DNA of 64,000 bases, taken from positions 2,170,001-2,234,000 of the forward strand of contig NZ_AP014924.1 of assembly GCF_001544015.1 (NCBI RefSeq), written 5' to 3'. Position 1 is the stretch's first letter; every line of letters begins with the position of its first letter. This DNA is from Limnochorda pilosa (GTDB lineage Bacteria; Bacillota; Limnochordia; Limnochordales; Limnochordaceae). The notes beneath the pieces are model-generated. The model saw only the letters and a list, made by a program, of their open reading frames with translations, had not been told where the DNA came from and searched no databases. A program made the position numbers and the translations under genes. Shown piece after piece: positions 4,347 through 56,340 of the stretch.

Positions 4347-4368
4347 CGTCTCCAACTCCTTTCCTTGA

Positions 4369-13314: not shown

Positions 13315-14592
13315 ATGGCAAGACGGCTCTGGCTCGCTGCACTGGCCCTCACGCTGGTGACGGCGCTGATGGTTCCCGCGGCCGCCGCCGAGCGCATCAC
13401 GGTGATCATGCCCCGGCATGAGATGGACCTGGTCGGCCTGTGGGAGAAGCAGACCCGGGAGTTCGAGCAGGAGACAGGCGTCGAGGTGGAGTTCATCCAG
13501 CTCTCGTGGGACGAGGTCGCGAACAAGGTCCTCACCGACCTGGCCGCAGGCGGCGGAACCTACGACGTGATCGAGTTCGACAACGGCTGGGTGGCCAAGT
13601 TCGCCGAGGCGGGCTGGGTGGAGCCTCTGGACCCTTACGCCTCCGACGCCTACCTGGAGAGCCTACTGCCCGGCCTGGTGGGCACCTTCAGCCGGAATGG
13701 GCAGGTTCTGGGCATCCCCTGGAACAACGACACCCGCTTCTTCTTCTACAACGCCCGCATGCTGGCGGAGGCCCGCATCGACGCGCCACCCAGGACGTGG
13801 GACGAGGTCGCGGTCCAGGCCCGCCGGTTGAAGGAGGCGGGCGTGGTGACCTACCCCATTGCCGAGTACTGGAACCAGGAGTGGGCCCTGGGCAACTCCT
13901 TCGCCTTCTACCTCTACAGCTTCGGCGCCGACTACTTCGACGAGACCGGCAAGATCACCATCGACAAGCCCCAGGGAGTCCAGGCGCTTCGCTTCATGGT
14001 GGACATGCTGCGGCAGGAGAAGCTCGTCCACCCTTCCAGCGTCACCCTCTCCCAGGAGGCCGCCGCGGACCTCTTCTACCAGGGTCAGGCCGCCTTCCTC
14101 TTCCAGGGACCGCCCGTGACCTACAACTACGCCAACGACCCCCAGCGTTCCCGGGTGGTGGGCGAGGTGCGTGCCGCCTCCTGGCTGCCGGCGCTCGACG
14201 CGCAGAGCCGAGTCACCCTGACGCTGCCCGAGGCCTTTGCCATCCCGAAGAGCAGCCGGCACAAGGAAGCAGCCTGGCGCTACATCCAATACATGATCTC
14301 TCAGGAGAAGGACCGCGAGCGGGCTGAGACCCTCGGAAGCCTGCCGCTCTTCCGCTCTCTGTACACCGATCCGCAGCTCCTGGCCAGGTATCCGTACTGG
14401 AAGCAGTTCGGTGAGCAGTCCGAGCGGGCCCGCCCGCTTCCGCAGGTGGAATGGTACGACGAGCTGGTGCAGACCACCATCGTGTCGGTGCAACGGGCGC
14501 TCCTGGGGCTTGCCACGCCCGAGCAGGCGGCCGGTGAGATCGCCGCCTTCCTGGATGGGCAGGAGGTCGACGGGGTGGGCCTTACACGGTGA
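13315..14592 (+). CDS. Extracellular sugar-binding protein of the ABC importer
   Basis: Family 1 solute-binding protein, 425 aa. Signal peptide at residues 1-25 (MARRLWLAALALTLV, AAAAE cleavage region) without a lipobox cysteine; then ITVIMPRHEMDLVGLWEKQ and the hallmark GGTYDVIEFDNGW and GIPWNNDTRFFFYN. ATG 13315 has AAAGGGG 9-10 bases upstream. Followed by an intercistronic hairpin. Ligand probably an amino sugar or oligosaccharide because AgaS and, facing it, NagA/GH20 genes are adjacent. Confidence 0.92.
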   Translation: MARRLWLAALALTLVTALMVPAAAAERITVIMPRHEMDLVGLWEKQTREFEQETGVEVEFIQLSWDEVANKVLTDLAAGGGTYDVIEFDNGWVAKFAEAGWVEPLDPYASDAYLESLLPGLVGTFSRNGQVLGIPWNNDTRFFFYNARMLAEARIDAPPRTWDEVAVQARRLKEAGVVTYPIAEYWNQEWALGNSFAFYLYSFGADYFDETGKITIDKPQGVQALRFMVDMLRQEKLVHPSSVTLSQEAAADLFYQGQAAFLFQGPPVTYNYANDPQRSRVVGEVRAASWLPALDAQSRVTLTLPEAFAIPKSSRHKEAAWRYIQYMISQEKDRERAETLGSLPLFRSLYTDPQLLARYPYWKQFGEQSERARPLPQVEWYDELVQTTIVSVQRALLGLATPEQAAGEIAAFLDGQEVDGVGLTR

Positions 14593-14600
14593 TGAAAGGA

Positions 14601-14630
14601 GCTCGGGGGTTGGGCCGCCGGCCCCCGAGC
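14601..14630 (+). other. Intercistronic hairpin after the sugar-binding-protein gene
   Basis: GCTCGGGGG and CCCCCGAGC form a 9-bp stem, extendable by two G-T pairs, 8 bases after the stop codon and 32 bases before the AgaS start. There is no T-run, so it is a candidate mRNA stabiliser or attenuating structure. Confidence 0.6.
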
Positions 14631-14662
14631 ACCACCACGAAGAGACCGGGAGGAATGCAGGC

Positions 14663-15850
14663 ATGTCCGCAGGACTTGCGTCGCTGCTACAGCTCGACGA
14701 AGAGACCAAGAAGGCGCGGGGGCTCCTCCACACGCCCGGGGAGATCGCCCGGCAACCGGAGATCTGGCCCAAGACGGTGCGGGCGATGCATGCCCATGCG
14801 AATCGGCTGCGGGAGCTTCTCGACGGTGTCCACGACGTTCTGCTCACCGGGGCGGGGAGCTCCTACTTCATCGGCAAGAGCCTGGAGAGGGCCCTGGCAG
14901 GGCACCTCAAGGCCCGGGTGACAGCCGTTCCTTCCACCGAAGTGGTGATGGACCCCGAGGCCACCCTCCCCCGTTCGTCCTTCCTGCTCGTCTCCTTCGC
15001 CCGTTCGGGGAACAGCCCCGAGGGAAACGCCACCTTCCAGCTCGCGGACCGGCTGCGTCCCGGCCAGGTCCGGCACCTGGTTGTCACGTGCAACCCCGAA
15101 GGGACTCTGGCCTCCCTGGCGCGGGCGACGGAAAGCCCGGCTGTTCTCTGCGAGCTTCCCGAGGCCAACGACCAGGGACTGGCGATGACCAACTCCTTCA
15201 CCAGCATGTTCGTCGCTGCGCTGGCGCTCGGGTACCTGGACGATCTGGAAGCCCACGCGCACGTGGTGGAAGGACTCGCCCAGTCGGGGGGTGAGGTCCT
15301 CGGGCGGCACGACAAGGCCCTCGAGGACCTGGCAAACCGGGACTTCCGCCGGGCCTTCTTCATCGGTTCGGGCGCCTCCTACGGGGCGGCGCTCGAGTGC
15401 CACCTGAAGGTCCAGGAGCTGACCGACGGGGAGGTCGTCGGCAAGGCCGAGGAGACGCTCGGCCTCCGCCACGGACCCATGGCGGCCATCGCTGCCTCGA
15501 GTCTGGTGGTCCTCTTTGCTTCATCCAGCCCCTACCGGAGGCAGTACGAGACAGATCTTCTGCGGGAGCTCCATGCGAAGGCTTTGGGGCTGCAGCGGGT
15601 GGTCGTCTGCGGGCGTGCCGAACCCGAGTGGCGAGACCTGGTCCACCACGTCATCGAGTTCGACCCTGTGGGTCGTCTTTCCACGGCGGACGAAGTCCTG
15701 CCGCCCGTTCAGGTGATCGTCGGACAACTGCTCGGGCTCTTCGCGTCCATCCGGTCGGGGCTCGCCCCGGACGCTCCCAGCCGCCACGGCGTGATCCACC
15801 GGGTGGTCGAGGGGGTTCGGATCTACTCTTACGGGCCCATTGGTCCGTAG
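14663..15850 (+). CDS. agaS: AgaS-family SIS-domain aldose-ketose isomerase / amino-sugar-phosphate deaminase
   Basis: Cytoplasmic enzyme with two SIS domains, 395 aa. Family landmarks are TPGEIARQPEIWPKTV near the N-terminus, DVLLTGAGSSYFIGKSLE (first SIS sugar-phosphate loop), LLVSFARSGNSPEG, VTCNPEGTLASLA, and second-domain FFIGSGASYGAALEC and ETLGLRHGPMAA. This set matches AgaS, which deaminates/isomerises galactosamine-6-phosphate (or related) to a ketose phosphate. ATG 14663 has GGGAGGA 8 bases upstream. It can take the product of NagA, encoded by the facing operon, and no NagB is present here. A fructosamine deglycase role is a less likely alternative. Confidence 0.85.
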   Translation: MSAGLASLLQLDEETKKARGLLHTPGEIARQPEIWPKTVRAMHAHANRLRELLDGVHDVLLTGAGSSYFIGKSLERALAGHLKARVTAVPSTEVVMDPEATLPRSSFLLVSFARSGNSPEGNATFQLADRLRPGQVRHLVVTCNPEGTLASLARATESPAVLCELPEANDQGLAMTNSFTSMFVAALALGYLDDLEAHAHVVEGLAQSGGEVLGRHDKALEDLANRDFRRAFFIGSGASYGAALECHLKVQELTDGEVVGKAEETLGLRHGPMAAIAASSLVVLFASSSPYRRQYETDLLRELHAKALGLQRVVVCGRAEPEWRDLVHHVIEFDPVGRLSTADEVLPPVQVIVGQLLGLFASIRSGLAPDAPSRHGVIHRVVEGVRIYSYGPIGP

Positions 15851-15870
15851 GGGATCGGATCTACCCCTGC

Positions 15871-15906
15871 GGGCCGCCGGCCCGGGGCGGACCGGGAGCC
15901 CGGCCC
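15871..15906. terminator. GC-rich inverted repeat between convergent operons
   Basis: GGGCCG (15871-15876) pairs with CGGCCC (15901-15906), and CCGG/CCGG can pair inside the right part. It lies in the 72-bp gap between the stops of agaS and the ROK kinase gene. No T-run on either strand, so a bidirectional terminator is only possible. Confidence 0.3.
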
Positions 15907-15922
15907 GACGTTGCGAAGAAGG

Positions 15923-16954
15923 TCACATGCGGGACAGACCGAGCCTTGCGACGGTCGCCGCGCCCACCACGCCCGCGAGGTGGCCCAGCGGAGTCAGATG
16001 CACGCATGCCTCCGCCTTGCGCAACTCGGGAGCGAGGGTTCCCACGGCCGCTCGGACCTCGTCCAGAAGCGGCCTCTCTCCGCCCACCGCCACCCCTCCG
16101 CCGAGCACCACCAGGTCCGGGTCGTAAGCCCTCACACCGATGACCACCGCCAGCGCGATCCCCCTGGCCAACCGGCGCCTCAGGTCCAAAGCGGCGCGAT
16201 CTCCCCGGGCGGCCGCTTCCAGCACGTCCTGCCCGTTCAAGGGCGCCCCATCGAGCCGCTGGCGACCCATGGACGTGGCCCACTGGGCGTCCTCCACCAC
16301 CTCACGCGCCCAGCGCGCCAGCGCCCGTCCTGACGCCACCGTCTCCAGACAGCCGCGCTGGCCGCAGTTGCACGGGTAGCCGTCGGCGACCACCGGAATG
16401 TGACCGATCTCACCTGCTTCCCCAGTGCCGCGAAAGAGCTCGCCGTCCATCACCAGGCCGGCCGCAAGACCCGTACCCACGCTGACGTAGAGAAGCGAAC
16501 GCGTCCCCGTTCCGAGACCGTGGCCCACTCCGTGGTGGAACTCGCCCAGGGCCGCCGCCTTCACGTCATTCTCCAGAAACGTGGGCAGACCAGCCCACGC
16601 CTCCAGCTGATACCGCAACGGTACGGCACCCGAGTCGAGCACCAGGTTGGAGCTGCCTTCCCAGGTCCCTGCCTGCGGGTCCACGCGCCCAGGCGCTCCA
16701 ACGCCCACGGCCCGAACCGCTTCCCAGCCGACACGCGCGCGGCTCCGGGCCTCCTCCACCGCATCCCGGATCTCCTCCACCACCGTGGAGGCCGAAGCGC
16801 CCCGCGCCACCGCGCGAGACGCCCAGGCAAGCACGTCACCGTTCGCCGTGACGATGCCCGCCGCGACCTTGGTGCCACCCACGTCCACACCCACGAACCG
16901 CGGCGCCTCAGCTTCGCCCACCTGCCGTAGCCCCCCGTCGTCACCCACGGACAA
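15923..16954 (-). CDS. ROK-family sugar kinase (probable N-acetylhexosamine/glucose kinase)
   Basis: Cytoplasmic ATP-dependent kinase, about 343 aa. Intact ROK kinase features: phosphate loop VGVDVGGTKVAAGIV, catalytic-region ENDVKAAALGE, and the zinc/substrate motif GHIPV...CNCGQRGCLE. The His-Cys set is complete, unlike the two ROK regulators of this island. TTG 16954 begins 9 bases after the nagA stop; GTG 16948 is possible. Last gene of the GH20-ROK-ABC-nagA operon; likely phosphorylates imported GlcNAc/GalNAc so NagA can act. Confidence 0.9.
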   Translation of the reverse strand: MSVGDDGGLRQVGEAEAPRFVGVDVGGTKVAAGIVTANGDVLAWASRAVARGASASTVVEEIRDAVEEARSRARVGWEAVRAVGVGAPGRVDPQAGTWEGSSNLVLDSGAVPLRYQLEAWAGLPTFLENDVKAAALGEFHHGVGHGLGTGTRSLLYVSVGTGLAAGLVMDGELFRGTGEAGEIGHIPVVADGYPCNCGQRGCLETVASGRALARWAREVVEDAQWATSMGRQRLDGAPLNGQDVLEAAARGDRAALDLRRRLARGIALAVVIGVRAYDPDLVVLGGGVAVGGERPLLDEVRAAVGTLAPELRKAEACVHLTPLGHLAGVVGAATVARLGLSRM

Positions 16955-16963
16955 CCCTGCTCG

Positions 16964-18139
16964 TCACAGGTTCTGAAAGACGATGCGACCGCGCACCACG
17001 GCCATGTCCACCTCCAAGTGAGGACCCAAGGCGATCATGTCCGCGTCCTTCCCCGGCTCAAGCGACCCCTTCCGATCGGCAACACCCATCAGCCGGGCCG
17101 GGTTGAACGCGGCCATCTGGACCGCGTCCTCCAGCCTGCACCCGGTGGTCTCCACCACGGCGCGCACGATGCGGTTCATGGGCATCACGCTACCGGACAG
17201 GGTCCCCCCCTCCACCCAGCAGCGGTCGCCCTCCTTGATCACCGTGTGCGGGCCGTGCGGGTAACGCCCGTCCGGCATTCCGGCCCAGTGGGTGTTGTCG
17301 GTGATGAGCGTGATCCCGTCCGGCGCCTTGCAGTTCATCAGCACCTGCATCGCCACGGGATTCACGTGGTAGCCGTCGCCGATCAGCTCCGCGTTCAGCT
17401 CAGGCCGGGTGAGGGCCGCACCCACCACGCCTGGATTCCGGTGGTGCATGGGAGGCATCCCATTGAAGGTGTGGCAAACCGACCGCAGCCCCCGGCGGAT
17501 GGCTGCGTCCATGACCTCGTAGCTCGCGTTGGTGTGGCCGGCGGAAGGCACGATCCCCCGCTCCACCAGGGCGTCGATGACCTCCATCGCTCCCGGGATC
17601 TCGGGCGCCAGGGTCATGTAGCGCAACGTCCCACCCGACGCGTCCCACATCCGCTCTACCTCCGACACCGAGGGCCGGCGCATCGCCTCCACGATCTGCG
17701 AGCCCCGCGCCGCCCCTTCGGCCGAGAGGTACGGCCCCTCCAGGTGAACTCCCAGAACGTCGCTGCCCGGAGTATCGGTTCCCACGAACGCACGCACCAC
17801 GTCCAGCTCCCGCAGCAGCTCCTCGAAGTCCTCGTCGCCCCCGAGGGTCGGGAGCACCGAGGTGGCCCCGTGGCGAACGAGCTGGACCAGCATGCCGGCC
17901 GTGGCGTCCGCCGAGGCGCCGGCCGCATGCCCGCCGGACCCGTGGACATGGATGTCGACGAAGCCCGGGGTCAGCGTCCGAGCGCCGGCATCCACGACCT
18001 GCGCATCGGGTTGAGGCGGCAGCATGACCTGAGGTCCCACCCAAACGATGCGACCGCCCTCCACGAGCACGGCGCCGCGCTCGATGCTCCGGAAAGGCGT
18101 TACCACCCGCTCCGCCTTGAAGACCGTACGTCCCTGCAT
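16964..18139 (-). CDS. nagA: N-acetylglucosamine-6-phosphate deacetylase
   Basis: Removes acetate from GlcNAc-6-P (or GalNAc-6-P), 391 aa, normal family length. Amidohydrolase TIM-barrel features: FVDIHVHGSGGH, metal-ligand Glu in HLEGPYLS, His in SAGHTNASYEV and CHTFNGMPPMHHRNPGVVG, and the catalytic Asp in LITDNTHWAGMPDG. ATG 18139 fits family length and gives MQGRTVFKAERVV; the longer frame to 18349 lies mostly inside the upstream permease gene and is not homologous. The ribosome site is weak (AAAGGGG 13 bases away), with GTG 18163 as alternative. Gap to the upstream permease is 52 bases. Confidence 0.93.
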   Translation of the reverse strand: MQGRTVFKAERVVTPFRSIERGAVLVEGGRIVWVGPQVMLPPQPDAQVVDAGARTLTPGFVDIHVHGSGGHAAGASADATAGMLVQLVRHGATSVLPTLGGDEDFEELLRELDVVRAFVGTDTPGSDVLGVHLEGPYLSAEGAARGSQIVEAMRRPSVSEVERMWDASGGTLRYMTLAPEIPGAMEVIDALVERGIVPSAGHTNASYEVMDAAIRRGLRSVCHTFNGMPPMHHRNPGVVGAALTRPELNAELIGDGYHVNPVAMQVLMNCKAPDGITLITDNTHWAGMPDGRYPHGPHTVIKEGDRCWVEGGTLSGSVMPMNRIVRAVVETTGCRLEDAVQMAAFNPARLMGVADRKGSLEPGKDADMIALGPHLEVDMAVVRGRIVFQNL

Positions 18140-18191
18140 GATGCGTCCGACCCCTTTCGCCACGTCGAGTGCACCGGCCAGCCCAGCGATC

Positions 18192-19106
18192 TCAGCCCTT
18201 GGTCGCCCCGAGGGTGAGACCTTCGATGATCCGCTGCGACAGGAAGACGTAGACGAGCAGCGATGGAACCATGACCACCGCGAACCCTGCGAAGAGGCCC
18301 ACCCAGTCGCCCGTGTACCGCATGTTGCCATAGAGGGCGTAGAGGCCAAGCGACAGTGTGTACTTGGTGTTGCTGACCAGGAGGGTCAGGCTGAGGAGGA
18401 ACTCGTTCAGCAGCCAGACCACGTTGAAGATGGTCGCGGTCAGAAGACCCGGTGCGGCCAGCGGCAGCATGATGGAGAGGAAGGTCCGCGAAGGGCTGCA
18501 TCCGTCGACGGTGGCCGCCTCCTCCAGCTCACTGGGGAGACTTCGGAAGAACCCGCGCAGCAGGAAGATGGTGAAGGGCAAGGAGGTGACCACGTAGGCC
18601 AGGATCAGCCCCGTGAGCGTGTCCACCAACCCGACCCGGAACATCAGGAAGAAGAGCGGGATGATGATCACCTGCACCGGTACCCCGATCCCCACGATGA
18701 AGAGGCTGGAGAGGGTCTGCGCGCCGCGGAAGTGCATCCTCGCGAGGGTGTAGGCGGCCGGAGTGGCCAGCACCAGCACCAGAAAGGCCGAGACGGCCAC
18801 CGCGAAGAGGCTGTTCCCGAAGTACTGCCCCAGGCTCCCCGAGGTGAGCACCCGCAGGTAGTTTCCCCACTGGGGTGCTTCCGGAAGGGACCAAATCCCG
18901 CGGAAGAACTCCTGATTGGTTTTCAAGGAGGCAAGCAGGATCCACCCGAACGCGAAGAGCGAGAAACCGATCCACACCAGAAAGAACGCCATCGCAATCA
19001 TGCGGGGCACGTCCCGGAGTCGAGCCTTCGTCGGCAGTCCCCTCTTCTGTGTCTCCGGCGGACAACGCGCTTCCGCGGAATCGAACGGCCTCGGTTCAGT
19101 ACTCAA
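18192..19106 (-). CDS. Sugar ABC importer permease, MalG type (NagA operon)
   Basis: Membrane permease of 304 aa with six hydrophobic segments. The EAA loop is EEAATVDGCSPSRTFLSIMLP and it ends GLTLGATKG, typical of MalG. TTG 19106 overlaps the stop of the MalF-type gene by 11 bases and has GGAGGGA 5 bases upstream; an ATG near 19001 inside is an alternative. No ATPase gene accompanies the importer. Confidence 0.92.
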   Translation of the reverse strand: MSTEPRPFDSAEARCPPETQKRGLPTKARLRDVPRMIAMAFFLVWIGFSLFAFGWILLASLKTNQEFFRGIWSLPEAPQWGNYLRVLTSGSLGQYFGNSLFAVAVSAFLVLVLATPAAYTLARMHFRGAQTLSSLFIVGIGVPVQVIIIPLFFLMFRVGLVDTLTGLILAYVVTSLPFTIFLLRGFFRSLPSELEEAATVDGCSPSRTFLSIMLPLAAPGLLTATIFNVVWLLNEFLLSLTLLVSNTKYTLSLGLYALYGNMRYTGDWVGLFAGFAVVMVPSLLVYVFLSQRIIEGLTLGATKG

Positions 19107-26903: not shown

Positions 26904-27359
26904 TCACGCACCGCCGTAGCGCTTCTCGATCTCGGCTAGCTTGGCCACCCGTCTCTGGAACTCGTTCTCTTGACTGTGCCGGGCGTTGAGGTAGGCTTGA
27001 ACGAGGTCGTAGGCGAGCTTCTCCCCCACCACCCACGCACCCAGGCACATCACGTTGGCGTCATCGTGCTCTACGGACTGGTGCGCGCAGTAGATGTCGT
27101 GGCAGAGGGCGGCACGAATCCCCGGAAACTTGTTGGCCGCGATGGAGGCTCCCACGCCTGTCCCGCAGATCATGATCCCGCGCTCCGCCTGGCCGGTACG
27201 GATCATCTCGCAGAGTTCCTCAGCGATGTCGGGGAAGTCCACCGGGTCTTGGCTGTGGGTTCCCACATCCGTCACGTCGTGTCCCCAGGAACGGAGCATC
27301 TCCACCATCTTGCGCTTCAAGGGGTAACCCGCGTGGTCCCCACCAACGACCAATCTCAT
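26904..27359 (-). CDS. rpiB: RpiB-family ribose-5-phosphate isomerase / sugar-phosphate isomerase
   Basis: Small cytoplasmic isomerase, 151 aa, normal RpiB length. MRLVVGGDHAGYPLKRKMVEMLRSWGH, the anion-hole loop GIMICGTGVGASIAANK with catalytic Cys, and HDDANVMCLGAWVVGEKLA are all present. Start ATG 27359. It is the last gene behind LacI in the ADPRH-TRAP operon, consistent with handling a ribose-phosphate-like product. Allose/galactose-6-phosphate isomerase homologues look similar, so the exact sugar is open. The interval 26710-26903 after it shows nothing recognisable. Confidence 0.92.
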   Translation of the reverse strand: MRLVVGGDHAGYPLKRKMVEMLRSWGHDVTDVGTHSQDPVDFPDIAEELCEMIRTGQAERGIMICGTGVGASIAANKFPGIRAALCHDIYCAHQSVEHDDANVMCLGAWVVGEKLAYDLVQAYLNARHSQENEFQRRVAKLAEIEKRYGGA

Positions 27360-27405
27360 CGCCTATACCTCCATTTCGGTGAGGGTCGCCCCCGTCCGAG
27401 CGCCT

Positions 27406-28503
27406 TCACAGGCTCTCACTCGTCGAAGGCACGACCCGAGGCGCACCCTCCGTACTGCTGGACCCGCACGATTGGCGGATGATGAGCTGCGGCTTCAGGT
27501 ACACGTCCCTCGCCACCGTCGAATCGAACGCCTCCCCGCCACGCGCAATGCCCTGCAGGATGCCTTTTGCGGCGGCCCTCCCCATTTCGTAAGTCCTCTG
27601 AGCCAGCGTGGTGAGTGGGGGAACGACCATCCGCGCCCACTCGCTCTCGTCAAAGCCGACCAAGGCCATCTCCTGAGGGATTCGGACCCCACGGTCGGCC
27701 AGGGCCTTCCATACCCCGACGGTCATCTTGTTGTTACACGCGAAGAGCGCCGTCGGGCGTCGATCTTTCTGCAGATCCAGCAGCTGGAGGGTCGCCCGGT
27801 ACCCACCGTCTTCGCGGAAGGCGCCGTAGGCGATCCAGTCCTCCTGAACGGGCAGGCCCGCGGTGCCCATCGCCTCCCGGTAACCTTCCAGGCGGTCGAT
27901 GCCCGTGTTGATGTCCTGCGGGCCCGCGATGACGCCGATGCGTCGATGTCCGAGGTGGATCAGGTGCATCGTGGCCTCGTAGGCTCCCGCGCGGTTGTCC
28001 GTCAGAATGGCCGGTCCACCACAGCCTTTCGGCCTCCGGTTGACGAAAACCCACGGAATGCCGTGGTCGCGAAGCAGTTGGAGGTGGTCCACCTGCTGGC
28101 CCGCGGCCGAGATGATGACACCCTCCACCCGTTTCTCGCACATCAGACGGCAGTGCTCCGCCTCCTTCGTCGGATCGTGGTCCGTATTCGAGAGAAGGGC
28201 GTGATATCGGTGCGTGGCGAGGACATCCTCAATACCCCGAACCAGTGAGGCATAGAACTGGTTGGTGATGTCCGTGATCAGAACACCCACCGTATGGGTG
28301 GCCTGCTTCTTCAGGCTCCGGGCGACGTAGTTCGGTGTGTAGCCCAGGTCCGCAGCGGCCCGAAGCACACGGTCACGGAGGTCCTCGCTCACGAATCCGG
28401 TATCGTTCAGCACTCGAGAAACGGTGGCCGTCGACGTGTCCGCCCGAAGGGCGACGTCCCGAATCGTGGCGTGCCGGCGCGTCACGTTCCTCTTCACCAT
28501 CAT
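27406..28503 (-). CDS. LacI-family transcriptional regulator
   Basis: Repressor of 365 aa. Lambda-like HTH and hinge at residues 8-60 (ATIRDVALRADTSTATVSRVLND; LGYTPNYVARSL), then a periplasmic-binding-like sensor domain (VGVLITDITNQFYASLVRGIED; GFDESEWARMVVPPLTTLAQ). ATG 28503 (or adjacent ATG 28500) has GGGAAGGG upstream. It lies between the TRAP genes and rpiB. A LacI-type palindrome before the ADPRH gene (32841-32850) is its probable operator. Inducer likely the imported sugar or riboside. Confidence 0.93.
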   Translation of the reverse strand: MMVKRNVTRRHATIRDVALRADTSTATVSRVLNDTGFVSEDLRDRVLRAAADLGYTPNYVARSLKKQATHTVGVLITDITNQFYASLVRGIEDVLATHRYHALLSNTDHDPTKEAEHCRLMCEKRVEGVIISAAGQQVDHLQLLRDHGIPWVFVNRRPKGCGGPAILTDNRAGAYEATMHLIHLGHRRIGVIAGPQDINTGIDRLEGYREAMGTAGLPVQEDWIAYGAFREDGGYRATLQLLDLQKDRRPTALFACNNKMTVGVWKALADRGVRIPQEMALVGFDESEWARMVVPPLTTLAQRTYEMGRAAAKGILQGIARGGEAFDSTVARDVYLKPQLIIRQSCGSSSTEGAPRVVPSTSESL

Positions 28504-28545
28504 CGACCCTTCCCTGATAGGCCCTCGCGCCACAGGATCTGTTGC

Positions 28546-28698
28546 CTAGGCCCGCTGCTGATTCGCCAGGCGATCGTAGACGCGGAACATGGCCTGATTA
28601 CCGTTCGATCCCTCGCCGTGCGCCTTGGCCTCCAGGTACAGGTTCGTGACGAGGGCCGCCCCTGGCGAATCGCCTCGGCAGAACAGCCGCGATCGCAG
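28546..28698 (-). pseudogene. Possible 3' gene remnant after dctM
   Basis: In frame with and directly after the dctM stop, an open stretch of 50 codons ends TAG at 28546. It reads GAALVTNLYLEAKAHGEG and NQAMFRVYDRLANQQ, compositionally like a real soluble protein C-terminus, perhaps a dehydrogenase, but it has no start codon or ribosome site. It could be the tail of a lost gene or chance. Not assigned. Confidence 0.25.
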
Positions 28699-29982
28699 CT
28701 AGAACCCGAGAAGCCTTGGTAACCAGAGCGCAACCTGCGGCGATACAGCCAGCAGCAAGGTCCCCCCGACGAGGATGGCCACGAAGGGCAACACGGCCTT
28801 CGCGGTCTCCTCGATGGTGGTCCCCGCGATACTGGATGTCACGAAAAGCACGGTACCGACGGGGGGAGTCAGCACCCCGAAGGTCAAGGCCGTTGTGATG
28901 ATGAGCCCGAGGAAGAGCGGGTCCACCCCCGCGGTGCTTGCGATGGGAATGATCACGGGCGTCAGGATGATGATTGCAGACAGGGTGTCGATGAAGGTCC
29001 CTATCGCGAGCATCACCAAGACCAGCACGATCATCAGCAGCCACGGCCGGCCAATAGTGGCCAGCAGGCTCTGGGCCAGGGTCGCGGGGATCATCTCATA
29101 GGCCATGATCCAACTGAAGACCGAGGCAATCGTCATTACCAGCATGACCACCCCAGTGGTAGCGGCCGTGTTCACCAACACCCGGGGAAGATCCCGAAGG
29201 GCAAGCTCGCGGTAGATCACTACGGCGACGAAGAGCGTGTAGAGAGCACCGACGGCCCCGGCCTCGGTGGGTGTCATGACACCGCCCAGGATTCCACCCA
29301 TGATGATGATCGGGGTCAGGAGGGCCAGAGCCGACTCCTTCAGGGAGGCCAGCAGCTCCCGCCGCGAGGCCCTTTTCTCCACCGGTATCCCCAGTTGCTT
29401 CGCCCGCAACCGGATGATGAGGGCCAAGCCCAGGCCAAAGATGATGCCAGGAACATAGCCGGCCACGAACAGCCCGCCGATAGAAACACCGGCCAGGGCG
29501 CCGTAGACGACCATGGGGATGCTGGGCGGGATAATGGCACCAAGGCTGCTCGAAGAGGATTCAACAGCTGCGGCCAGCCCCCGCGTATACCCCGTCCGGA
29601 TCATCGCAGGTATGGTGACGGTCCCGGTGCCGACGGCGTTGGCTACGGCCGAGCCTGAGAAGCTGGCGAAGATCATGCTCGAGAACAGCGCCACCACCCC
29701 GACCCCGCCGGTGAAGTGGCCCACGAGCGTCTTCGAGAACTGCACCAGGCGGCGGGCAACCCCCCCGGCATTCATCAGCTCGCCGGCCAGCACGAAAAAG
29801 GGAATGGCCGTCAGGGTGAACGAGTCTGCCCCGGCAAACATCTGCTGGGTGAGGACGGTCAACGAGATCCCGGGTACGAACAAGACCACGTAGGCCAAGG
29901 AGGTCAGTCCGAGGGCGAACGCGATGGGGATCCGCACCGCCAAGAGCACAAGGAAGGTCGTCAGGAGAACAGCCAAGGCCAT
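28699..29982 (-). CDS. TRAP transporter large permease DctM (ADPRH cluster)
   Basis: Integral membrane protein of 427 aa with about twelve segments, the ion-coupled channel of a TRAP importer. Family marks are TLTAIPFFVLAGELMNAGG, FSSMIFASFSGSAVANAVG, GAIIPPSIPMVVYG and GVLTPPVGTVLFV. ATG 29982 fits GGTGG 8 bases upstream; GTG 29994 sits directly on the GGAGG. Located after dctQ in the order ADPRH-dctP-dctQ-dctM-lacI-rpiB. Confidence 0.93.
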   Translation of the reverse strand: MALAVLLTTFLVLLAVRIPIAFALGLTSLAYVVLFVPGISLTVLTQQMFAGADSFTLTAIPFFVLAGELMNAGGVARRLVQFSKTLVGHFTGGVGVVALFSSMIFASFSGSAVANAVGTGTVTIPAMIRTGYTRGLAAAVESSSSSLGAIIPPSIPMVVYGALAGVSIGGLFVAGYVPGIIFGLGLALIIRLRAKQLGIPVEKRASRRELLASLKESALALLTPIIIMGGILGGVMTPTEAGAVGALYTLFVAVVIYRELALRDLPRVLVNTAATTGVVMLVMTIASVFSWIMAYEMIPATLAQSLLATIGRPWLLMIVLVLVMLAIGTFIDTLSAIIILTPVIIPIASTAGVDPLFLGLIITTALTFGVLTPPVGTVLFVTSSIAGTTIEETAKAVLPFVAILVGGTLLLAVSPQVALWLPRLLGF

Positions 29983-30003
29983 ATCGTTATCCACCCTCCT
30001 CGT

Positions 30004-30483
30004 CTACTGCTGGCCTGGGGTCTGTTGGTCTGTAAGCAGGAGCTGGATGATCTTAAGGAGCATTAGTAAGCACGAAACGGGGACGCTCAGGTAGCCCCAG
30101 GCCGCCGAGATCCCGAGGATCGGGGTGGTGCGGCCAAAGCCCAGCGTCTGCTGGACGAGGAGGGCCCCGTTGTAGGCCATCACCCCGAGGAAGACCGCGG
30201 TTAGTAGGCTGCCCCCTACCCGCCAGAGCCCTACGTACCGAGCGGGCAATCGGTCAGTCACGAAGGTGATCGACAGGTGGCCGTTGCGCGTGAGGGCCAC
30301 GAAGGCGCCCAGGAAGACGACCCAAACGAAGGCGATCCGGCTCACCTCTTCAGCCCAGAGCATACCGGACTGAAGGACGTAGCGCGCGAACACGTTTGCG
30401 GAGACTACAGCGACAAGCAAGCCCGTCAGGCCCGCGACGATCCCCTGGACCATTTCTTCGATCTTCTGCATCACCGTGTTCAT
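30004..30483 (-). CDS. TRAP transporter small permease DctQ (ADPRH cluster)
   Basis: Four-helix membrane subunit, 159 aa. The family pattern is ARYVLQSGMLWAEEVSRIAFVWVVFLGAFVAL followed by GHLSITFVTDRLP and a C-terminal pair of segments. ATG 30483 with AAGGAGG 11 bases upstream. It bridges dctP and dctM. Confidence 0.9.
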   Translation of the reverse strand: MNTVMQKIEEMVQGIVAGLTGLLVAVVSANVFARYVLQSGMLWAEEVSRIAFVWVVFLGAFVALTRNGHLSITFVTDRLPARYVGLWRVGGSLLTAVFLGVMAYNGALLVQQTLGFGRTTPILGISAAWGYLSVPVSCLLMLLKIIQLLLTDQQTPGQQ

Positions 30484-30533
30484 GTGTCCGCGCGCCCTCC
30501 TTCGCCCTCCAGACCCAACCCGTGTTCCCGGAG

Positions 30534-31544
30534 CTAGGGTGTCTGAAGCAAGGTCTCGTACAGTTCGCGACTGAACTTCTTGCCGATGTACCCGTCGTGG
30601 ACCGACCGGGTGGCCTTACGGAAGGGCTCCAGGTCCGGCCAGTTCACCTGGACCCCCTCTGCCTCCATCTTCTGGATGAGGTCAGAGGTGACTTCCTCGA
30701 CGTACCTGCGCTGGTACTCCAGGGCCTCGGCTGCCGCGGAGCGTACGGCGGCCTGCAGATCCGGTGACAGTGAGTCGAAGAACCGCTTGTTGACCACCAG
30801 TACCGTAAAGGAGAGCAGGTGGTTGGTCATCGACATGTACTTCTGCACTTCCTGCAACCGGGCAGGGTAGATGTTGATCACGGCGTTCTCCTGGCCGTCG
30901 ATGGTGCCCTGCTGCAGGGCCGTATACACCTCGCCGTAGGGTATGGCCACCGCCGTACCGCCCATGGCCTTGGTGATGGCTAGGTTCACCGGGTTCTCCG
31001 GGCTACGGATCTTCAGGCCGCGAAGGTCCTCGGGTCGCTCGATGGGCCGCTGGCTGTTGGTGTACACCCGAGCACCGTTGTTCCCCCAGCCCAGGACCAG
31101 CAGGTTCTTGCTCGCCAACTGCTGCTCAATCGCATCGCCCACCGGCCCATCCAGCACGCGGAAGGCGTGCTCGTGGTCCCGGAACAGGTAGGGCAAGCTC
31201 AACAGAGTGGTGATCGGGGCGAACTGCGCCAGCGGGTCGTGACCGATGAAAGTCATCTCGATGATCCCGTTCTGGACGCCCTGGATCACCTCCGTCTCCT
31301 GGCCGAGCTGGCCACCCGGGAACACCCTCACCTGCAGCTGACCGTCCGTTTTCTCCTCGAGAATCTCGGCGAACTTCGTGGCTCCCACGTCGAAGTGGCT
31401 GTCTACGGCACAGCAGTGCGGCAGACGGATGGTGATGGTCTTTGCCTGTGCGAGTCCAGAGGCCGTCACCACCAGCATGGCCGCCAGAAGGGTCACGCTT
31501 ATGAAGCGGGTCACTCTCTTGGAAGCCCTTCTCACGCGTTGCAT
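30534..31544 (-). CDS. TRAP transporter substrate-binding protein DctP (ADPRH cluster)
   Basis: Secreted binding protein, 336 aa. Signal peptide (RFISVTLLAAMLVVTASGLAQA), then KTITIRLPHCCAVDSHFDVG, FPGGQLGQETEVIQGVQNG, the substrate-carboxylate Arg region LRGLKIRSPENPVN and YGEVYTALQQGTIDGQEN. ATG 31544 has GGAGGGG 8 bases upstream. TRAP proteins of this class usually bind carboxylates through the conserved Arg, so the ligand may be a sugar acid or acidic riboside; this is inferred. Confidence 0.92.
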   Translation of the reverse strand: MQRVRRASKRVTRFISVTLLAAMLVVTASGLAQAKTITIRLPHCCAVDSHFDVGATKFAEILEEKTDGQLQVRVFPGGQLGQETEVIQGVQNGIIEMTFIGHDPLAQFAPITTLLSLPYLFRDHEHAFRVLDGPVGDAIEQQLASKNLLVLGWGNNGARVYTNSQRPIERPEDLRGLKIRSPENPVNLAITKAMGGTAVAIPYGEVYTALQQGTIDGQENAVINIYPARLQEVQKYMSMTNHLLSFTVLVVNKRFFDSLSPDLQAAVRSAAAEALEYQRRYVEEVTSDLIQKMEAEGVQVNWPDLEPFRKATRSVHDGYIGKKFSRELYETLLQTP

Positions 31545-31593
31545 GATCTACTGCCCCTCCTTCTTGGGTCGATGTGTCTGCAACCTGGTTGGG

Positions 31594-32739
31594 TCACTGC
31601 TCCTGCTCAAGTTGCTCGATCTCCCCGATGCGCTGTCGCATGGCGTCCCTGCGGGTCAACAGTGTCTGGGTCAACCGAATGGAGAGGTCCCGCATGGACA
31701 ACTTCTGCACCGTGTACGGGTTGGCGTCGATCGCCTGCTGTACGACCTCCATCCACTCGTTGGGCACGTTGTCGATGCCCTTAAAGGCCCCGCAGATGGC
31801 TCCAAGCATCCCCCCAATGCAATCGGTGTCCCGACCAAGGTTCGTCGCGCCGATCATACCCTCCCGGACCTCGCCCTTGGTGATGACGAAGAGGGCGAGA
31901 GCTTCCGCTGCCGTTTCCACGGCGTCGGCGTAGGGATAGGTCGGCATGAAGTGCCGGCGAATGGGCTCTCGGATCTCTCGGATATCCGGGTGCTGCTGCG
32001 CGATCTCAAGGGTCTCGTCCAAGATCTCCCTGGTGTGAAGCGACACGTACTTCCGGGCCGCCTCCACGACAGACTCCACCGTTGCCCCTGGCCGAAAGGC
32101 CTCGGCCGTGGCAGCCGCGATCATCCGGCTGGCCTCGACCCCTCCGCTGGCCGGCGGCTGCAAGAGGAAGGAGACCTCGGCCGCATCCATAGAGGCCTGG
32201 AACGGATCGCAGGCGTTGATGATGCCGATGGGGCCGATCATGTGGGGCGCGTCCACCAGGCCCGGCCAGGGGGTGAGGGATCCGATCAGGCGAGGCGGGA
32301 TCCGGGTGTTCTCATCCCCGGCGGTGAGGCGGTCCATGTGGATCTTGATGTGGGGATTGACAAGACGCCCGATATCCTCACGCTTGATGTGCCGTTTCCA
32401 CACCTCTGCCAGATCGTCGACCGTGACGCGGTCGCCTTTCTCCACGATGGCCAGGGCGAGCAGATACCGGATCTCGGCTCCATCCTCGGTCATACCTGGA
32501 GGCATGTCCATATGCAGGTAGCGAAGGCGAGGGCTGTTGTTCCAGTAGCGCACGTCCCGCTCTTTCTGCATCCAGGGGAGAAAGGTCTCCACCCACCCGA
32601 GTTCCTCCTCGATGGCCTTCCAGCCACCCCCAGGGACGCTCACCCATTCCACCGCGGCCCCCATGGCCGAACCGATGTTGGCGACCGCGATGGATCCATA
32701 CACCTTCTTGAACAGTTGCGACCTCTCAAGCTCCGACAA
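31594..32739 (-). CDS. ADP-ribosylglycohydrolase family protein, divergent (TRAP-linked)
   Basis: ADPRH-fold protein, 381 aa, first gene of the TRAP operon. Recognisable elements are NIGSAMGAAVEW (the usual GD replaced by GS), MPPGMTEDGAEIRYLLALA (TDDT replaced by TEDG), MIGPIGIINACDPFQA and NLGRDTDCIGGMLGAICGA with the DTD metal ligands kept. It belongs to a TEDG-type subgroup distant from the first ADPRH of this window. TTG 32739 with AAAGGATGA about 10 bases upstream. Operon context with DctPQM, LacI and RpiB suggests hydrolysis of an imported ribosyl compound; whether it is catalytically active is not shown. Confidence 0.85.
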   Translation of the reverse strand: MSELERSQLFKKVYGSIAVANIGSAMGAAVEWVSVPGGGWKAIEEELGWVETFLPWMQKERDVRYWNNSPRLRYLHMDMPPGMTEDGAEIRYLLALAIVEKGDRVTVDDLAEVWKRHIKREDIGRLVNPHIKIHMDRLTAGDENTRIPPRLIGSLTPWPGLVDAPHMIGPIGIINACDPFQASMDAAEVSFLLQPPASGGVEASRMIAAATAEAFRPGATVESVVEAARKYVSLHTREILDETLEIAQQHPDIREIREPIRRHFMPTYPYADAVETAAEALALFVITKGEVREGMIGATNLGRDTDCIGGMLGAICGAFKGIDNVPNEWMEVVQQAIDANPYTVQKLSMRDLSIRLTQTLLTRRDAMRQRIGEIEQLEQEQ

Positions 32740-32840
32740 CCCGGGTCATCCTTTCATCCTCCTGGCTTGGCGTTGAGCCCTAGATCCCTTGCCCGTCGGC
32801 AGTCCTCTAGCCCCCCTTCTGCGGCGTTTAATCGGTTACA

Positions 32841-32850
32841 TAAACGTTTA
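32841..32850 (-). promoter_or_regulatory. LacI-type operator upstream of the ADPRH-TRAP operon
   Basis: TAAACGTTTA, a perfect dyad around CG, typical of LacI/CcpA/PurR-like sites, about 100 bp upstream of the ADPRH gene in an AT-rich patch. The operon encodes a LacI regulator. CcpA-like control is an alternative. Confidence 0.55.
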
Positions 32851-32904
32851 CACGGAGGTTATTTCTCCACAGCGCGGGAAACTCCTCCCTCCCCCCGGCC
32901 GCCC

Positions 32905-33018
32905 AAGGTAGTCGAGGTCAAGCGCCTGCTGAAGCGGACGCTGGACCCGAAGAACCTCATGAACCCCGGCAAGATGGCGCTGGATGAGGGCTTGCCCAAC
33001 GCTCAGGGGGCGGAATAG
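32905..33018 (+). pseudogene. C-terminal remnant of an FAD-linked oxidase (GlcD/lactate dehydrogenase type)
   Basis: Plus-strand frame ending TAG at 33018. The stretch VKRLLKRTLDPKNLMNPGKM matches the conserved C-terminal ending of glycolate oxidase/D-lactate dehydrogenase-type FAD proteins (xLDPxxxxNPGK). Nothing upstream on this strand is homologous: it breaks off inside the intergenic region before the ADPRH operon. It marks a junction where an older gene was lost. Confidence 0.6.
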
Positions 33019-52047: not shown

Positions 52048-53145
52048 TCAGGGATCTACATCCTTCGCCGTCCTTCGCTTCGCGCCACCGGTGCCCATGG
52101 CCAATCGAACGGCGTAAAGGATCGCCTGGACCATGGAAGCGTCGCTGGCCACGCCCGTCCCTGCGATGTCGAAGGCGGTCCCGTGGTCGACGGAGGTCCG
52201 GATGATGGGAAGACCGACCGTGACGTTGACGGACCGATCGAAACCGGCCAGCTTGGCGGGGATGTGCCCCTGGTCGTGGTACATGGCGACGACGATGTCG
52301 AAGCGCCCTTGCTGCGCGTGCCAGAAGACCGTGTCGGGCGGGTGGGGACCGGTGGCATCGATCCCCTCTCGCCAGGCCGCCTCCACCGCTGGGCGGATCT
52401 CCTGCTCGTCCTGGCCCCCGAAGAGGCCGTGCTCGCCCGCGTGCGGGTTGAGGCCGGCGACCGCCACCCGGGGTCTCATGATCCCTTCCCGCCTCAGCAC
52501 CCGGTCGGCGAGGCGGATCACGGAGAGGATGCGCGGCGCTCGGACCCGGCGGATCGCCTCCTCGAGGCTGACGTGGGTCGAGACGTGGATCACCCGCAGG
52601 GTAGGGCCGGCCAGCATCATGGCGTACTCCGCTGCACCCGTCAGGGCGGCGAGCATTTCGGTGTGCCCCGGGTAGGGGATCTCCGCCAGCCTCAGCGCCT
52701 CTTTGTTGAGCGGTGCGGTGACGACGGCGGCAACGTGTCCCGCCAGTGCCATCTGGACCGCGTGCTCCACGTACTCGGCTCCAGCTCGGCCGGCGACGGC
52801 GCTCCGTTCGCCCCACCGGTGCGCCTCCGGCGGCACGTTCCCCAGATCGACCAGCTCCACCCCCTCGGGAAGCTCAAGGGTTCCCGCAGGGCCCTCGCCG
52901 CCCCGGAGCGTCCGCTGCGCCCGGGTCAGAACGCCTCCGTCCCCTACGATGACGGGCCGGCAGGCCTGCAGGACCTCCGGACGGGAGATCGCCTTGAGGG
53001 TGACCTCGGGGCCGACGCCGGCGGGATCCCCCAGGGTGATAGCCACCCGCGGACGCGCGCGGCGCACACGACTCTCGTCTTGCTCCCCCTCGGAGGCCTG
53101 CCCGCCTCCACGGTCGATCTCAGGCCACTCATCTGTGTCGGTCAC
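52048..53145 (-). CDS. pdxA2: PdxA2-family 4-phospho-D-threonate/D-erythronate 3-dehydrogenase
   Basis: NAD-dependent, metal-requiring oxidative decarboxylase, 365 aa. PdxA fold motifs are AITLGDPAGVGPEVTLKA, APLNKEAL, GHTEMLA, VAGLNPHAGEHGLFG and VAMYHDQGHIPAKLAGFDRSVNVT (metal His). Because a DUF1537 kinase is in the operon, this is PdxA2 of acid-sugar breakdown (giving DHAP and CO2), not the vitamin B6 enzyme. GTG 53145 follows AGGAGGAGG; about 30 N-terminal residues are extra and charged. Last gene of the operon. Confidence 0.9.
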   Translation of the reverse strand: MTDTDEWPEIDRGGGQASEGEQDESRVRRARPRVAITLGDPAGVGPEVTLKAISRPEVLQACRPVIVGDGGVLTRAQRTLRGGEGPAGTLELPEGVELVDLGNVPPEAHRWGERSAVAGRAGAEYVEHAVQMALAGHVAAVVTAPLNKEALRLAEIPYPGHTEMLAALTGAAEYAMMLAGPTLRVIHVSTHVSLEEAIRRVRAPRILSVIRLADRVLRREGIMRPRVAVAGLNPHAGEHGLFGGQDEQEIRPAVEAAWREGIDATGPHPPDTVFWHAQQGRFDIVVAMYHDQGHIPAKLAGFDRSVNVTVGLPIIRTSVDHGTAFDIAGTGVASDASMVQAILYAVRLAMGTGGAKRRTAKDVDP

Positions 53146-53237
53146 GGTCTTTCCTCCTCCTGTTCTCTCGCGGGATCGCCCGGCTGGCGGCGCGCTGGAG
53201 CGGTGATCTGCTGGAGGACCAGCAGAGCAACGGCAGG

Positions 53238-54509
53238 TCAGTGGAAGAGCAGTCCCGGGAGCCAGAGCGCCAAGTCGTCGACGAAGATGATGACGAAGAG
53301 CAGGATCACCATCACCACCAGGTAGGGTAGGCTCTCCCGAGCGACCTGGAGCACCGGCACCTTGGCCAGATACGACGAGATGATCAAGGTGGTACCTACG
53401 GGCGGGGTGAAAAGCCCGATGGCCAGCGCGAAGACCATGATCACCGCAAAGTGGATCGGATCGGCTCCCACAGCCTGCACAACGGGTAGGAGGATGGGAC
53501 CGAAGAGGATCACGCCGGGCGAGACATCCAGGAAGGTCCCAGCCACCAGGAAGGCAACGCCCAGGATCAGCAGCAGGACCGTGGGTGAGGAGATCACGGT
53601 GCTCAGTGCAGCGGCAAGCCTCTGGGGGACCATCGAGTAGGCGAGGAGCCAGGTGATCAGCGCCGCCGTCGAGATGACCATCATCACCACGGCTGCGGAG
53701 ACGGCCGAATCCAGGAGGGCGTCCTTCAGGCGCTGCCAGGTGATCTCCCGGTAGATCAACCCAAGGATGAGCGCGTAGAGGACCGCGACCACCGAGGCCT
53801 CGGTGGGGGTGAAGATCCCCCCCATGATCCCGCCCAGGATGATCACGACCATGAAGAGCGCCGGCAGCCCCTGCAGGATCGCCCGCGCCAGCTCACCTCC
53901 GGTTGCCCGCCGGTAGTGAGCGTAGCCGCGACGGCGGGAGATGACGGTGGTCAGCGCCAACATGGAGAGGCCGGCCAGGATCCCCGGCACCGCGCCCCCG
54001 AAGAAGAGCTCCCGGATGGAGAGCGCCGTGGCGACCCCCGTGAGGATCATCGGGATGCTGGGCGGGATGATGATCCCGACGGTCGACGAGGTGGCGTTGA
54101 CCGCCGCCGAGAAGCCCGATCCGTACTTCTCCCTCTTCATGGCCGGGATCAGGATCGACCCGAGGCCAGAGGCATCGGCCACCGACGACCCCGAGACGCC
54201 GGCGAAGAACATACTGGCCACGATGGAGACGTTGGCCAGGCCGCCGGGCAGGTGGCCCACCAGCGCCCGGGAGAGTACAATGATCCGATCGGCCAAGCCA
54301 CCGGCGTTCATCAGGGCACCGGCCAGCATGAAGAAGGGGATCGCCATGAACGGGAAGGAATCGACGCCGGTGAACATCCGCTGGAAAGCGACCAGGACCG
54401 GCAAGGAGGTGTGGGTCACCACGTAGGCGACCCCGGCCAGACCGAGGCTGAAGGCGATCGGCATGCCCAGGACGAGAAGCAGGACGAAGCTCGAGGCGAG
54501 GACGGTCAT
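53238..54509 (-). CDS. TRAP transporter large permease DctM (acid-sugar operon)
   Basis: Integral membrane protein, 423 aa. FPFMAIPFFMLAGALMNAGGLADR, ASMFFAGVSGSSVADASGLG, VGIIIPPSIPMILTG and GLFTPPVGTTLIIS identify DctM. ATG 54509 overlaps the dctQ TGA (ATGA) with GGAGGGG upstream. Imports the acid sugar used by the DUF1537 kinase. Confidence 0.93.
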   Translation of the reverse strand: MTVLASSFVLLLVLGMPIAFSLGLAGVAYVVTHTSLPVLVAFQRMFTGVDSFPFMAIPFFMLAGALMNAGGLADRIIVLSRALVGHLPGGLANVSIVASMFFAGVSGSSVADASGLGSILIPAMKREKYGSGFSAAVNATSSTVGIIIPPSIPMILTGVATALSIRELFFGGAVPGILAGLSMLALTTVISRRRGYAHYRRATGGELARAILQGLPALFMVVIILGGIMGGIFTPTEASVVAVLYALILGLIYREITWQRLKDALLDSAVSAAVVMMVISTAALITWLLAYSMVPQRLAAALSTVISSPTVLLLILGVAFLVAGTFLDVSPGVILFGPILLPVVQAVGADPIHFAVIMVFALAIGLFTPPVGTTLIISSYLAKVPVLQVARESLPYLVVMVILLFVIIFVDDLALWLPGLLFH

Positions 54510-55222: not shown

Positions 55223-55229
55223 CGGGCGG

Positions 55230-56329: not shown

Positions 56330-56340
56330 CGCGGCAACGT

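Follow-up and report, generated by a model that had tools for sequence, protein, structure and literature searches.

An operon that joins an ADP-ribosylhydrolase-fold protein to a TRAP transporter in Limnochorda pilosa and in other bacterial phyla

In the 64,000-nucleotide stretch of Limnochorda pilosa DNA analysed here (the window), a gene for an ADP-ribosylhydrolase (ADPRH)-fold protein, ADPRH2, opens an operon that also encodes a complete TRAP transporter, and this combination is conserved across four phyla. A catabolic role of the operon is well supported, and on balance we favour a mobile operon for the use of an imported anionic glycoside. The TRAP transporter would import the glycoside, most likely carboxylated to judge from the DctP residues, and the cytoplasmic ADPRH2 would cut its glycosidic bond, plausibly a ribofuranosyl one, at a modified metal site. 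An RpiB-family isomerase of a divergent type that we call VEHD would then interconvert the freed aldose and its ketose, and a ribokinase-type kinase, whose gene lies in the operon of some relatives and elsewhere in this genome, would phosphorylate the sugar and so feed it into the pentose-phosphate pathway, where the entry point is probably ribulose 5-phosphate. ADPRH-fold proteins are usually taken to be erasers of ADP-ribosylation or toxin immunity proteins; a probably mobile, strongly conserved operon that couples such a protein with a transporter of the carboxylate type argues that some members of the family are glycosidases that scavenge nutrients and have an altered metal site.

Organization of the operon

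As the initial annotation had proposed, six genes follow one another on the minus strand, each scoring above its Pfam cut-off: ADPRH2, the first gene of the operon, which has a TTG start (32739-31594; PF03747, 101.2 bits against a cut-off of 26.2); the TRAP solute-binding protein DctP (31544-30534; PF03480, 300.6 bits); the small permease DctQ (30483-30004; PF04290, 111.2 bits); the large permease DctM (29994-28699; PF06808, 398.4 bits); a LacI-family regulator (28533-27406; PF00356, the HTH domain, at 60 bits and PF13377, both above cut-off); and the VEHD-type RpiB-family isomerase (27359-26904; PF02502, 174.6 bits). All three TRAP subunits (PF03480, PF04290 and PF06808) are thus encoded side by side. 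Pfam profiles detected neither a DUF1537 kinase nor PdxA within 26904-32739; the DUF1537 and PdxA genes of the window belong to a separate TRAP operon (52048-57753).

The LacI protein reached the cut-off of none of the NCBIfam equivalog models. A perfect palindrome, TAAACGTTTA, lies 5' of ADPRH2 (32841-32850) and is a candidate LacI operator; it occurs once in the window, while shuffles allowing at most one mismatch give an expectation of 0.06. Gene and palindrome together make it likely that LacI is a local repressor. An operator common to relatives was rejected, as the related operon in genome G353 has no such palindrome 5' of its LacI gene.

Conservation of the gene set across phyla

The close loci, most of them contigs of metagenome-assembled genomes (MAGs) and some of them short, come from Bacillota, Spirochaetota, Pseudomonadota and Actinomycetota. 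DctP follows ADPRH in all ten, and the full TRAP set follows it in all nine that have room for it, DctM being split across two frames in one (L053). Intergenic gaps along ADPRH-DctP-DctQ-DctM are no longer than 59 bases in each of the eight comparison loci measured, across four phyla, and identity co-varies with that of ADPRH for DctP (r = 0.89), DctQ (0.77) and DctM (0.92). When the DctP of this clade was defined as scoring more than 370 bits, it was counted in two Bacillota (398 genomes), two Spirochaetota (392 genomes) and one member of the class of the Devosia MAG (376 genomes); all five adjoin an ADPRH gene, three of the five genomes having already been found through ADPRH. The operon has probably moved between phyla as one unit. 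A plasmid search with ADPRH gave two weak matches.

The co-occurrence of ADPRH, TRAP and RpiB, for which the initial annotation suggested an analysis, holds for ADPRH and TRAP (9/9 loci with room) and fails in part for RpiB, whose place is occupied by a PCC-domain protein in three of nine close loci. Its concern that the genes might not be kept together in related genomes is answered by the conservation of the set in other genomes. RpiB and LacI differ from locus to locus. RpiB and PCC were never found together within 6 kb in 71 distant loci (RpiB in 8, two of these being of the ordinary type, and PCC in 7). Strict exclusivity of the two was not upheld, and with such small numbers the pattern may be due to chance.

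A kinase gene lies inside or directly beside only two of the nine complete close loci, and the window operon has none. The G353 operon reads LacI-PfkB-ADPRH-DctP-DctQ-DctM-RpiB, and in L055 a divergent ribokinase-like gene (289.2 bits, slightly below cut-off) adjoins the operon; in L050, a PfkB gene lies about 4 kb upstream. An apparent DctM-RpiB fusion in L055 was discarded, because the 600-residue frame overlaps DctM in another frame. Thalassobacillus devorans (L101), in which the ADPRH is distant (31%) and the TRAP system a different one, has the order LacI-ribokinase-RpiB-ADPRH-DctQ-DctM-DctP, with a ribokinase above its cut-off (331.6 against 299.65 bits).

The VEHD-type isomerase

The initial annotation named the last gene a ribose-5-phosphate isomerase-type enzyme, a name that family models uphold and active-site residues call into question. 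The protein passes the cut-off of the RpiB equivalog TIGR01120 (156.2 against 138.65) and falls below that of NF051858, the D-erythrulose-4-phosphate isomerase DerI (121.8 against 240). Like ribose-5-phosphate isomerases of the RpiB family, VEHD-type proteins retain the equivalents of the catalytic Cys, Thr and His (24 of 24 aligned rows), but most of their phosphate-site residues are gone: in LdRpiB numbering, the equivalents of Arg113 and His138 are lost in all 24 rows and that of Arg137 in 22, while that of Arg141 is retained in 22. The roles of the phosphate-anchoring Arg residues and of the active-site His138 of LdRpiB are described in an excerpt of PMC4783025. Given these losses in the alignment, the name ribose-5-phosphate isomerase is doubtful.

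VEHD-type RpiBs were found in 7 of 71 distant ADPRH loci and in 13 ADPRH-linked loci altogether, and the same type accompanies other transporters without ADPRH. In all 11 alphaproteobacterial plasmid loci examined there is no visible ADPRH; on rhizobial plasmids the isomerase gene is accompanied by TRAP alone, and in others by an ABC transporter for polar amino acids together with a HIBADH-type dehydrogenase. Sinorhizobium, for example, has a GntR-TRAP-rpiB operon free of ADPRH. Many genes of catabolic operons annotated as rpiB, including those on rhizobial megaplasmids, may not encode ribose-5-phosphate isomerases. None of the 28 Bacillota RpiB loci ranked next below the two VEHD ones has the motif. 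The VEHD-type RpiBs fall on one side of a branch whose support (86/81 and 81/86) is not starred, and we do not claim that they are monophyletic. In a second tree, from which four long-branched rows were omitted and in which 6 of the 28 extra Bacillota RpiBs were included, the RpiB of Devosia falls among alphaproteobacterial RpiBs from loci that lack ADPRH (98/94), and recruitment of RpiB has therefore probably happened repeatedly.

DctP and the likely substrate

The nearest solved relatives of DctP include 4P47, 4NQ8 and 4PDH. With the TRAP sugar-acid binders of the 4P47, 4NQ8, 4PDH, 4PDD and 4P9K group it shares sequence kinship (E down to 2e-61) and anion-site residues; it differs from them in its partners, an ADPRH and a VEHD-type RpiB. 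The window protein has equivalents of R152, R173, Y196 and N213 of 4P47, and these anion-binding Arg, Arg and Asn residues, with the Tyr, are present in all nine aligned close-clade DctPs, that of the window included. Their retention makes an acidic substrate likely and neutral or cationic ribosides unlikely, among them the nicotinamide riboside-like compounds put forward by the initial annotation. The ribokinases of some relatives suggest a ribosyl substrate; a ribosyl bond is putative. A vicinal Cys-Cys pair, considered as a mark of the DctP clade, was dropped, as only four of nine close DctPs have it.

The alternative that survives best, a real but minor possibility, is a sugar-acid TRAP operon with an erythronate- or pantoate-like ligand, in which the ADPRH-fold protein would not hydrolyse a glycoside but catalyse another reaction, for example the opening of a lactone or amide, and the VEHD-type isomerase would act on the sugar acid or a derivative. 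In its favour, structures related to DctP, in the closed state, held pantoate or erythronate, among others, with the reservation that co-purified TRAP ligands may not be native (both according to an excerpt of PMC11668362). The plasmid loci, with the isomerase beside TRAP alone or beside the dehydrogenase and ABC transporter, also fit it. However, characterised ADPRH-fold enzymes split ribosyl bonds, ribokinase-type genes are linked to the operon in L101, L055 and G353, and the window operon lacks DUF1537 and PdxA, which are found in the separate TRAP operon at 52-58 kb.

A phosphorylated riboside is an unlikely substrate. In that case ADPRH2 would free ribose 5-phosphate directly and RpiB would isomerise it, so that no kinase would be needed, and most close loci indeed lack one. 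TRAP binding proteins that hold phosphates do exist, but those with bound glycerol phosphate lack the Asn that DctP has (excerpt of PMC11668362), the equivalents of Arg113 and His138 (24/24) and of Arg137 (22/24) are lost from VEHD-type RpiBs, and the ribokinases of relatives would be idle.

A further and rather improbable reading is that TEDG ADPRHs (see below) and VEHD-type RpiBs act together in a pathway not yet described: an acidic riboside would be hydrolysed and the free, unphosphorylated sugar isomerised by an RpiB relative whose phosphate site has been lost, a PCC protein replacing the isomerase in some lineages. If so, the PCC (DUF296) family would gain a metabolic function.

ADPRH2 represents a separate ADPRH subfamily

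The AlphaFold2 model of ADPRH2 (pLDDT 95.2) has the all-helical ADPRH fold, with Z scores of 35.5 to MJ1187 (1t5j; rmsd 2.4 over 295 residues), 34.6 to ARH3, 32.5 to DraG and 30.0 to ARH1. It resembles these proteins over the whole domain and in the acidic residues at corresponding motifs, but has GSAMG, TEDG and GRDTDC where they have GDALG, TDDT and GGDTDT/S, and, unlike them, it is encoded with a TRAP transporter. In canonical ADP-ribosylhydrolases, TDDT and GxDTD(T/S) provide the metal ligands; ADPRH2 matches neither motif. E85 and C307 stand where characterised ADPRHs have metal-binding residues, so that activity could be altered. TEDG (S for T in two) and GRDTDC are present in all 39 aligned subfamily ADPRHs, and E31, E85, D86, D304, T305 and D306 are invariant, an invariance of TEDG and DTDC that is partly a selection effect because the loci were found through these motifs; in a set gathered without the motif, TEDG occurs with DTDC in 5/5. 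ADPRH2 belongs to a separate ADPRH subfamily with changed metal-site motifs.

The fold matches to ARH3 and DraG would also suit a regulatory, DraG/ARH-like hydrolase of ADP-ribosyl-proteins that shares the operon with a transporter incidentally. This is very unlikely in view of the altered motifs, of equivalog scores far below the cut-offs (DraG, 28.3 against 337; Tri1, 21.6 against 490) and of a gene that keeps its TRAP partners from one phylum to another and is found in the company of catabolic genes. That the genes are chance neighbours or belong to separate operons, a reading to which only the variable RpiB and LacI lend themselves, is refuted for ADPRH and TRAP by the order and short gaps kept in eight loci of four phyla, and we give it practically no weight.

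Other ADPRHs of the genome and known systems

The initial annotation argued for catabolic use of the fold from a comparable cluster with another transporter and regulator. That cluster (1120-5106) indeed comprises an ADPRH, a PfkB kinase, a Bmp/PnrA-type binding protein and a GntR-UTRA regulator. The argument gains from the genome as a whole, in which five of seven ADPRH genes lie in transporter operons, including a third such operon outside the window (LacI-ABC permease-ABC permease-SBP followed by three ADPRH genes). It loses from the comparison of the two window ADPRHs, which share a superfamily but are only very remotely related (21.9 bits) and have different active-site motifs, those of the first cluster being TDDT and GGDTDS. 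Elsewhere the same genome encodes a further RpiB (209.4 bits) as well as a ribokinase above cut-off (316.5 bits).

The claim that the pathway had not been described agrees with full-text literature searches, which found none. Nothing was found on ADPRH with TRAP, and, among the matches listed, there was no such pathway for ADPRH with ribokinase (by title and abstract), for riboside catabolism by ADP-ribosylhydrolase or for ADPRH with nucleoside and carbohydrate kinase, and no such operon for rpiB with TRAP or Sinorhizobium. Yet a permease-ADPRH-PfkB operon is already in print: E. coli yegTUV, under a GntR regulator, has genes of unknown function and is tied to ADP-glucose and glycogen, according to an excerpt of PMC10819704. 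It likewise unites a transporter, an ADPRH and a sugar kinase, but has a nucleoside-type MFS permease and no RpiB where the window operon has TRAP and RpiB, and its make-up is nearer to that of the first cluster of the window.

Conservation of the ADPRH-TRAP unit

The gene order ADPRH-DctP-DctQ-DctM-LacI-RpiB proposed in the initial annotation was recovered as six minus-strand ORFs (32739-26904) that match ADP_ribosyl_GH, DctP, DctQ, DctM, LacI and RpiB, all above the Pfam cut-offs. We class the locus as a putative catabolic operon of the TRAP kind whose ADPRH (ADPRH2) is atypical; classification as an ADP-ribosylhydrolase system was rejected because the canonical motifs are absent.

A contig scan of genomes, using a five-row ADPRH alignment as the query, yielded 79 loci. 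In eight of these (L048-L055, from records assigned to Devosia, Sphaerochaeta, Spirochaetaceae, Spirochaetales, Spirochaetes, Bacillota, Clostridia and Actinomycetota), and in G353, a genome of the same order as Limnochorda, the ADPRH is more conserved relative to the window (70-75% identity) than is DctP (53-71%); ADPRH identity in the remaining 71 is near 28-36%. Within the close set of ten (L048-L055, G353 and the window), DctP directly follows ADPRH in every locus (the L054 contig ends within DctP), and the complete DctP-DctQ-DctM set follows in all nine loci with sufficient room, so that the joint conservation on which the initial annotation had made its reading depend does hold. DctM is followed by RpiB in six of the nine (window, G353, L048, L050, L051, L055) and by a PCC-domain (DUF296) protein in three (L049 5230-5682, L052 8409-8846, L053 14656-15135). 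The regulator differs, being LacI in the window, G353 and L054 and GntR-FCD in L048, L049, L051, L052, L053 and L055.

Across pairs of loci, ADPRH identity is correlated with the identity of DctP (0.89, 36 pairs), DctQ (0.77, 36 pairs) and DctM (0.92, 28 pairs, without L053). Furthermore, between-phyla identity is as high as within-order identity, which points to transfer of the unit, with binning errors in metagenome-assembled genomes as a possible alternative source.

DctP exceeds 370 bits only in G000 and G353 among 398 Bacillota (next match, 265), passes 1e-85 only in G400 and G401 among 392 Spirochaetota, and passes 1e-75 only in G398 among 376 genomes of the class of the Devosia MAG. All five clade DctPs are adjoined by an ADPRH, three of the five having already been located via ADPRH. 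DctP retains the equivalents of Arg152, Arg173, Tyr196 and Asn213 of 4P47, for whose group PMC11668362 describes a carboxylate-binding set and a site-closing aromatic residue; its substrate is therefore likely to bear a carboxylate or similar anion.

Fold and motifs of the ADPRHs

The AlphaFold2 model of ADPRH2 (pLDDT 95.2, pTM 0.94) superimposes on MJ1187 (Z 35.5, 2.4 A over 295 residues), ARH3 (Z 34.6), DraG (Z 32.5) and ARH1 (Z 30.0). The subfamily differs from canonical ADPRHs in its motifs (GSAMG-type, TEDG and GRDTDC): the position of the GDALG aspartate is occupied by Ser in 29 and Asn in 10 of 39 rows, while E85, D86, D304, T305, D306 and C307 are invariant in all 39, rows that were picked via these motifs. 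In a set assembled without regard to motif, TEDG was paired with DTDC in five of five sequences, and TDDT with a final Thr/Ser wherever the second motif was readable. Long ADPRHs with GWDTDC and without TDDT were also seen (L003, L014, L015, L016), several in tandem beside other ADPRHs.

The Limnochorda genome encodes seven ADPRHs, five of them in transporter operons. The first cluster of the window (1120-5106, minus strand) comprises a GntR-UTRA regulator, a Bmp/PnrA-type binding protein, a canonical ADPRH and a PfkB kinase. This ADPRH carries its motifs in the classical form (GDALG, TDDT, GGDTDS) and is barely related to ADPRH2 (21.9 bits). Thus, the ADPRHs of the window represent distinct branches, each put to transporter-linked use. 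A third transporter operon, outside the window (L220 8206-15662), reads LacI-ABC permease-ABC permease-SBP-ADPRH-ADPRH-ADPRH, its three tandem ADPRHs being of different subtypes. Of the two remaining ADPRH genes of this genome, one (L219 7048-8697) encodes an ADPRH domain fused behind a GntR DNA-binding domain, where the fold perhaps serves as a ligand sensor. Another RpiB is encoded elsewhere in the genome, as is a ribokinase that exceeds its cut-off.

A divergent RpiB accompanies the unit in most close loci

The ADPRH-linked RpiBs have a VEHD motif in common. In trees, a branch sets them apart from 22 others (support 86/81, not starred) and, together with 11 alphaproteobacterial sequences, from 24 others (81/86, not starred). 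We mapped 24 VEHD rows and 50 other RpiB-family rows onto E. coli RpiB, with the residue roles that PMC4783025 gives for Leishmania RpiB; the paper further mentions that an ordinary RpiB may accept D-ribose as substrate. The active-site Asp, His, Cys, Thr and His are kept in 24/24 VEHD rows, and the Arg141 equivalent in 22; the equivalents of Arg113 and His138 are missing in all 24 (Phe replacing His138 in 19) and that of Arg137 in 22, often with Asp instead. The other rows keep Arg113, His138 and Arg137 in 43, 45 and 44 of 50 cases. With most phosphate-site residues lost, ribose 5-phosphate is a doubtful substrate.

In a plasmid search, the best RpiB relatives were alphaproteobacterial (58-63% identity). 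Contexts were examined for 11 of the 60 matches listed; all 11 are of the VEHD type, and no ADPRH was visible in any (six scanned by phmmer, five from incomplete annotation), so the part common to these operon types is RpiB, not ADPRH. TRAP genes with GntR regulation occur in six (L199, L200, L201, L203, L206, L209), and a polar-amino-acid ABC transporter with a HIBADH-type dehydrogenase in five, four of which (L202, L204, L205, L207; not L208) have a ribokinase/PfkB gene nearby. L199 (S. meliloti pSymB) and its relatives are GntR-TRAP-RpiB operons whose RpiB is without most phosphate-site residues.

Distant loci and a putative pathway

Neighbours within 6 kb at the 71 distant ADPRH loci include RpiB (8, six of the VEHD type, a seventh VEHD RpiB lying farther away in L094), PCC proteins (7) and ABC sugar permeases (9). 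PCC proteins recur beside TEDG-type ADPRHs (further loci L059, L065, L082, L085, L095, L099, L125), in some operons in the position of RpiB. L101, LacI-ribokinase-RpiB-ADPRH-DctQ-DctM-DctP with the ribokinase over its equivalog cut-off, differs from the close loci in TRAP system and gene order; an adjacent stretch (14292-18466), with LacI, a PfkB kinase, an OMPdecase/HUMPS-family protein and other genes, resembles a hexulose-phosphate module. L082 reads ABC transporter-ADPRH-PCC-cupin-aldehyde dehydrogenase-FGGY kinase-class II aldolase, a gene set likewise consistent with breakdown of a sugar after its release.

Most contexts fit a scheme in which an acidic glycoside would be imported and hydrolysed by ADPRH, and the freed sugar isomerised and phosphorylated. 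The analysis demonstrates the genes and their conservation, the fold, the altered motifs and the retained anion site; from these we infer the hydrolysis, the ribosyl nature of the glycoside and the order of isomerase and kinase. The ADPRH fold and the TRAP, RpiB and LacI families are already known, as is E. coli yegTUV, an uncharacterised permease-ADPRH-kinase operon (PMC10819704).

Surroundings of the operon

Upstream of the operon, beyond a gap of 302 bases, lies a distinct region of polyamine type, which encodes an aldehyde dehydrogenase, agmatinase, aminobutyraldehyde dehydrogenase, putrescine aminotransferase and an ABC transporter. The palindrome TAAACGTTTA (32841-32850), in this gap and occurring once in the window, looks like a candidate LacI-type operator; no such palindrome was found upstream of LacI in the G353 operon. 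The ADPRH promoter gap also holds a plus-strand remnant (32890-33018) reading like the C-terminus of what we take to be a GlcD/FAD-linked oxidase (VKRLLKRTLDPKNLMNPGKMAL). A further minus-strand TRAP operon (52048-57753), which includes PdxA and a kinase of the DUF1537 type (SBD_N, NBD_C), resembles described sugar-acid pathways.
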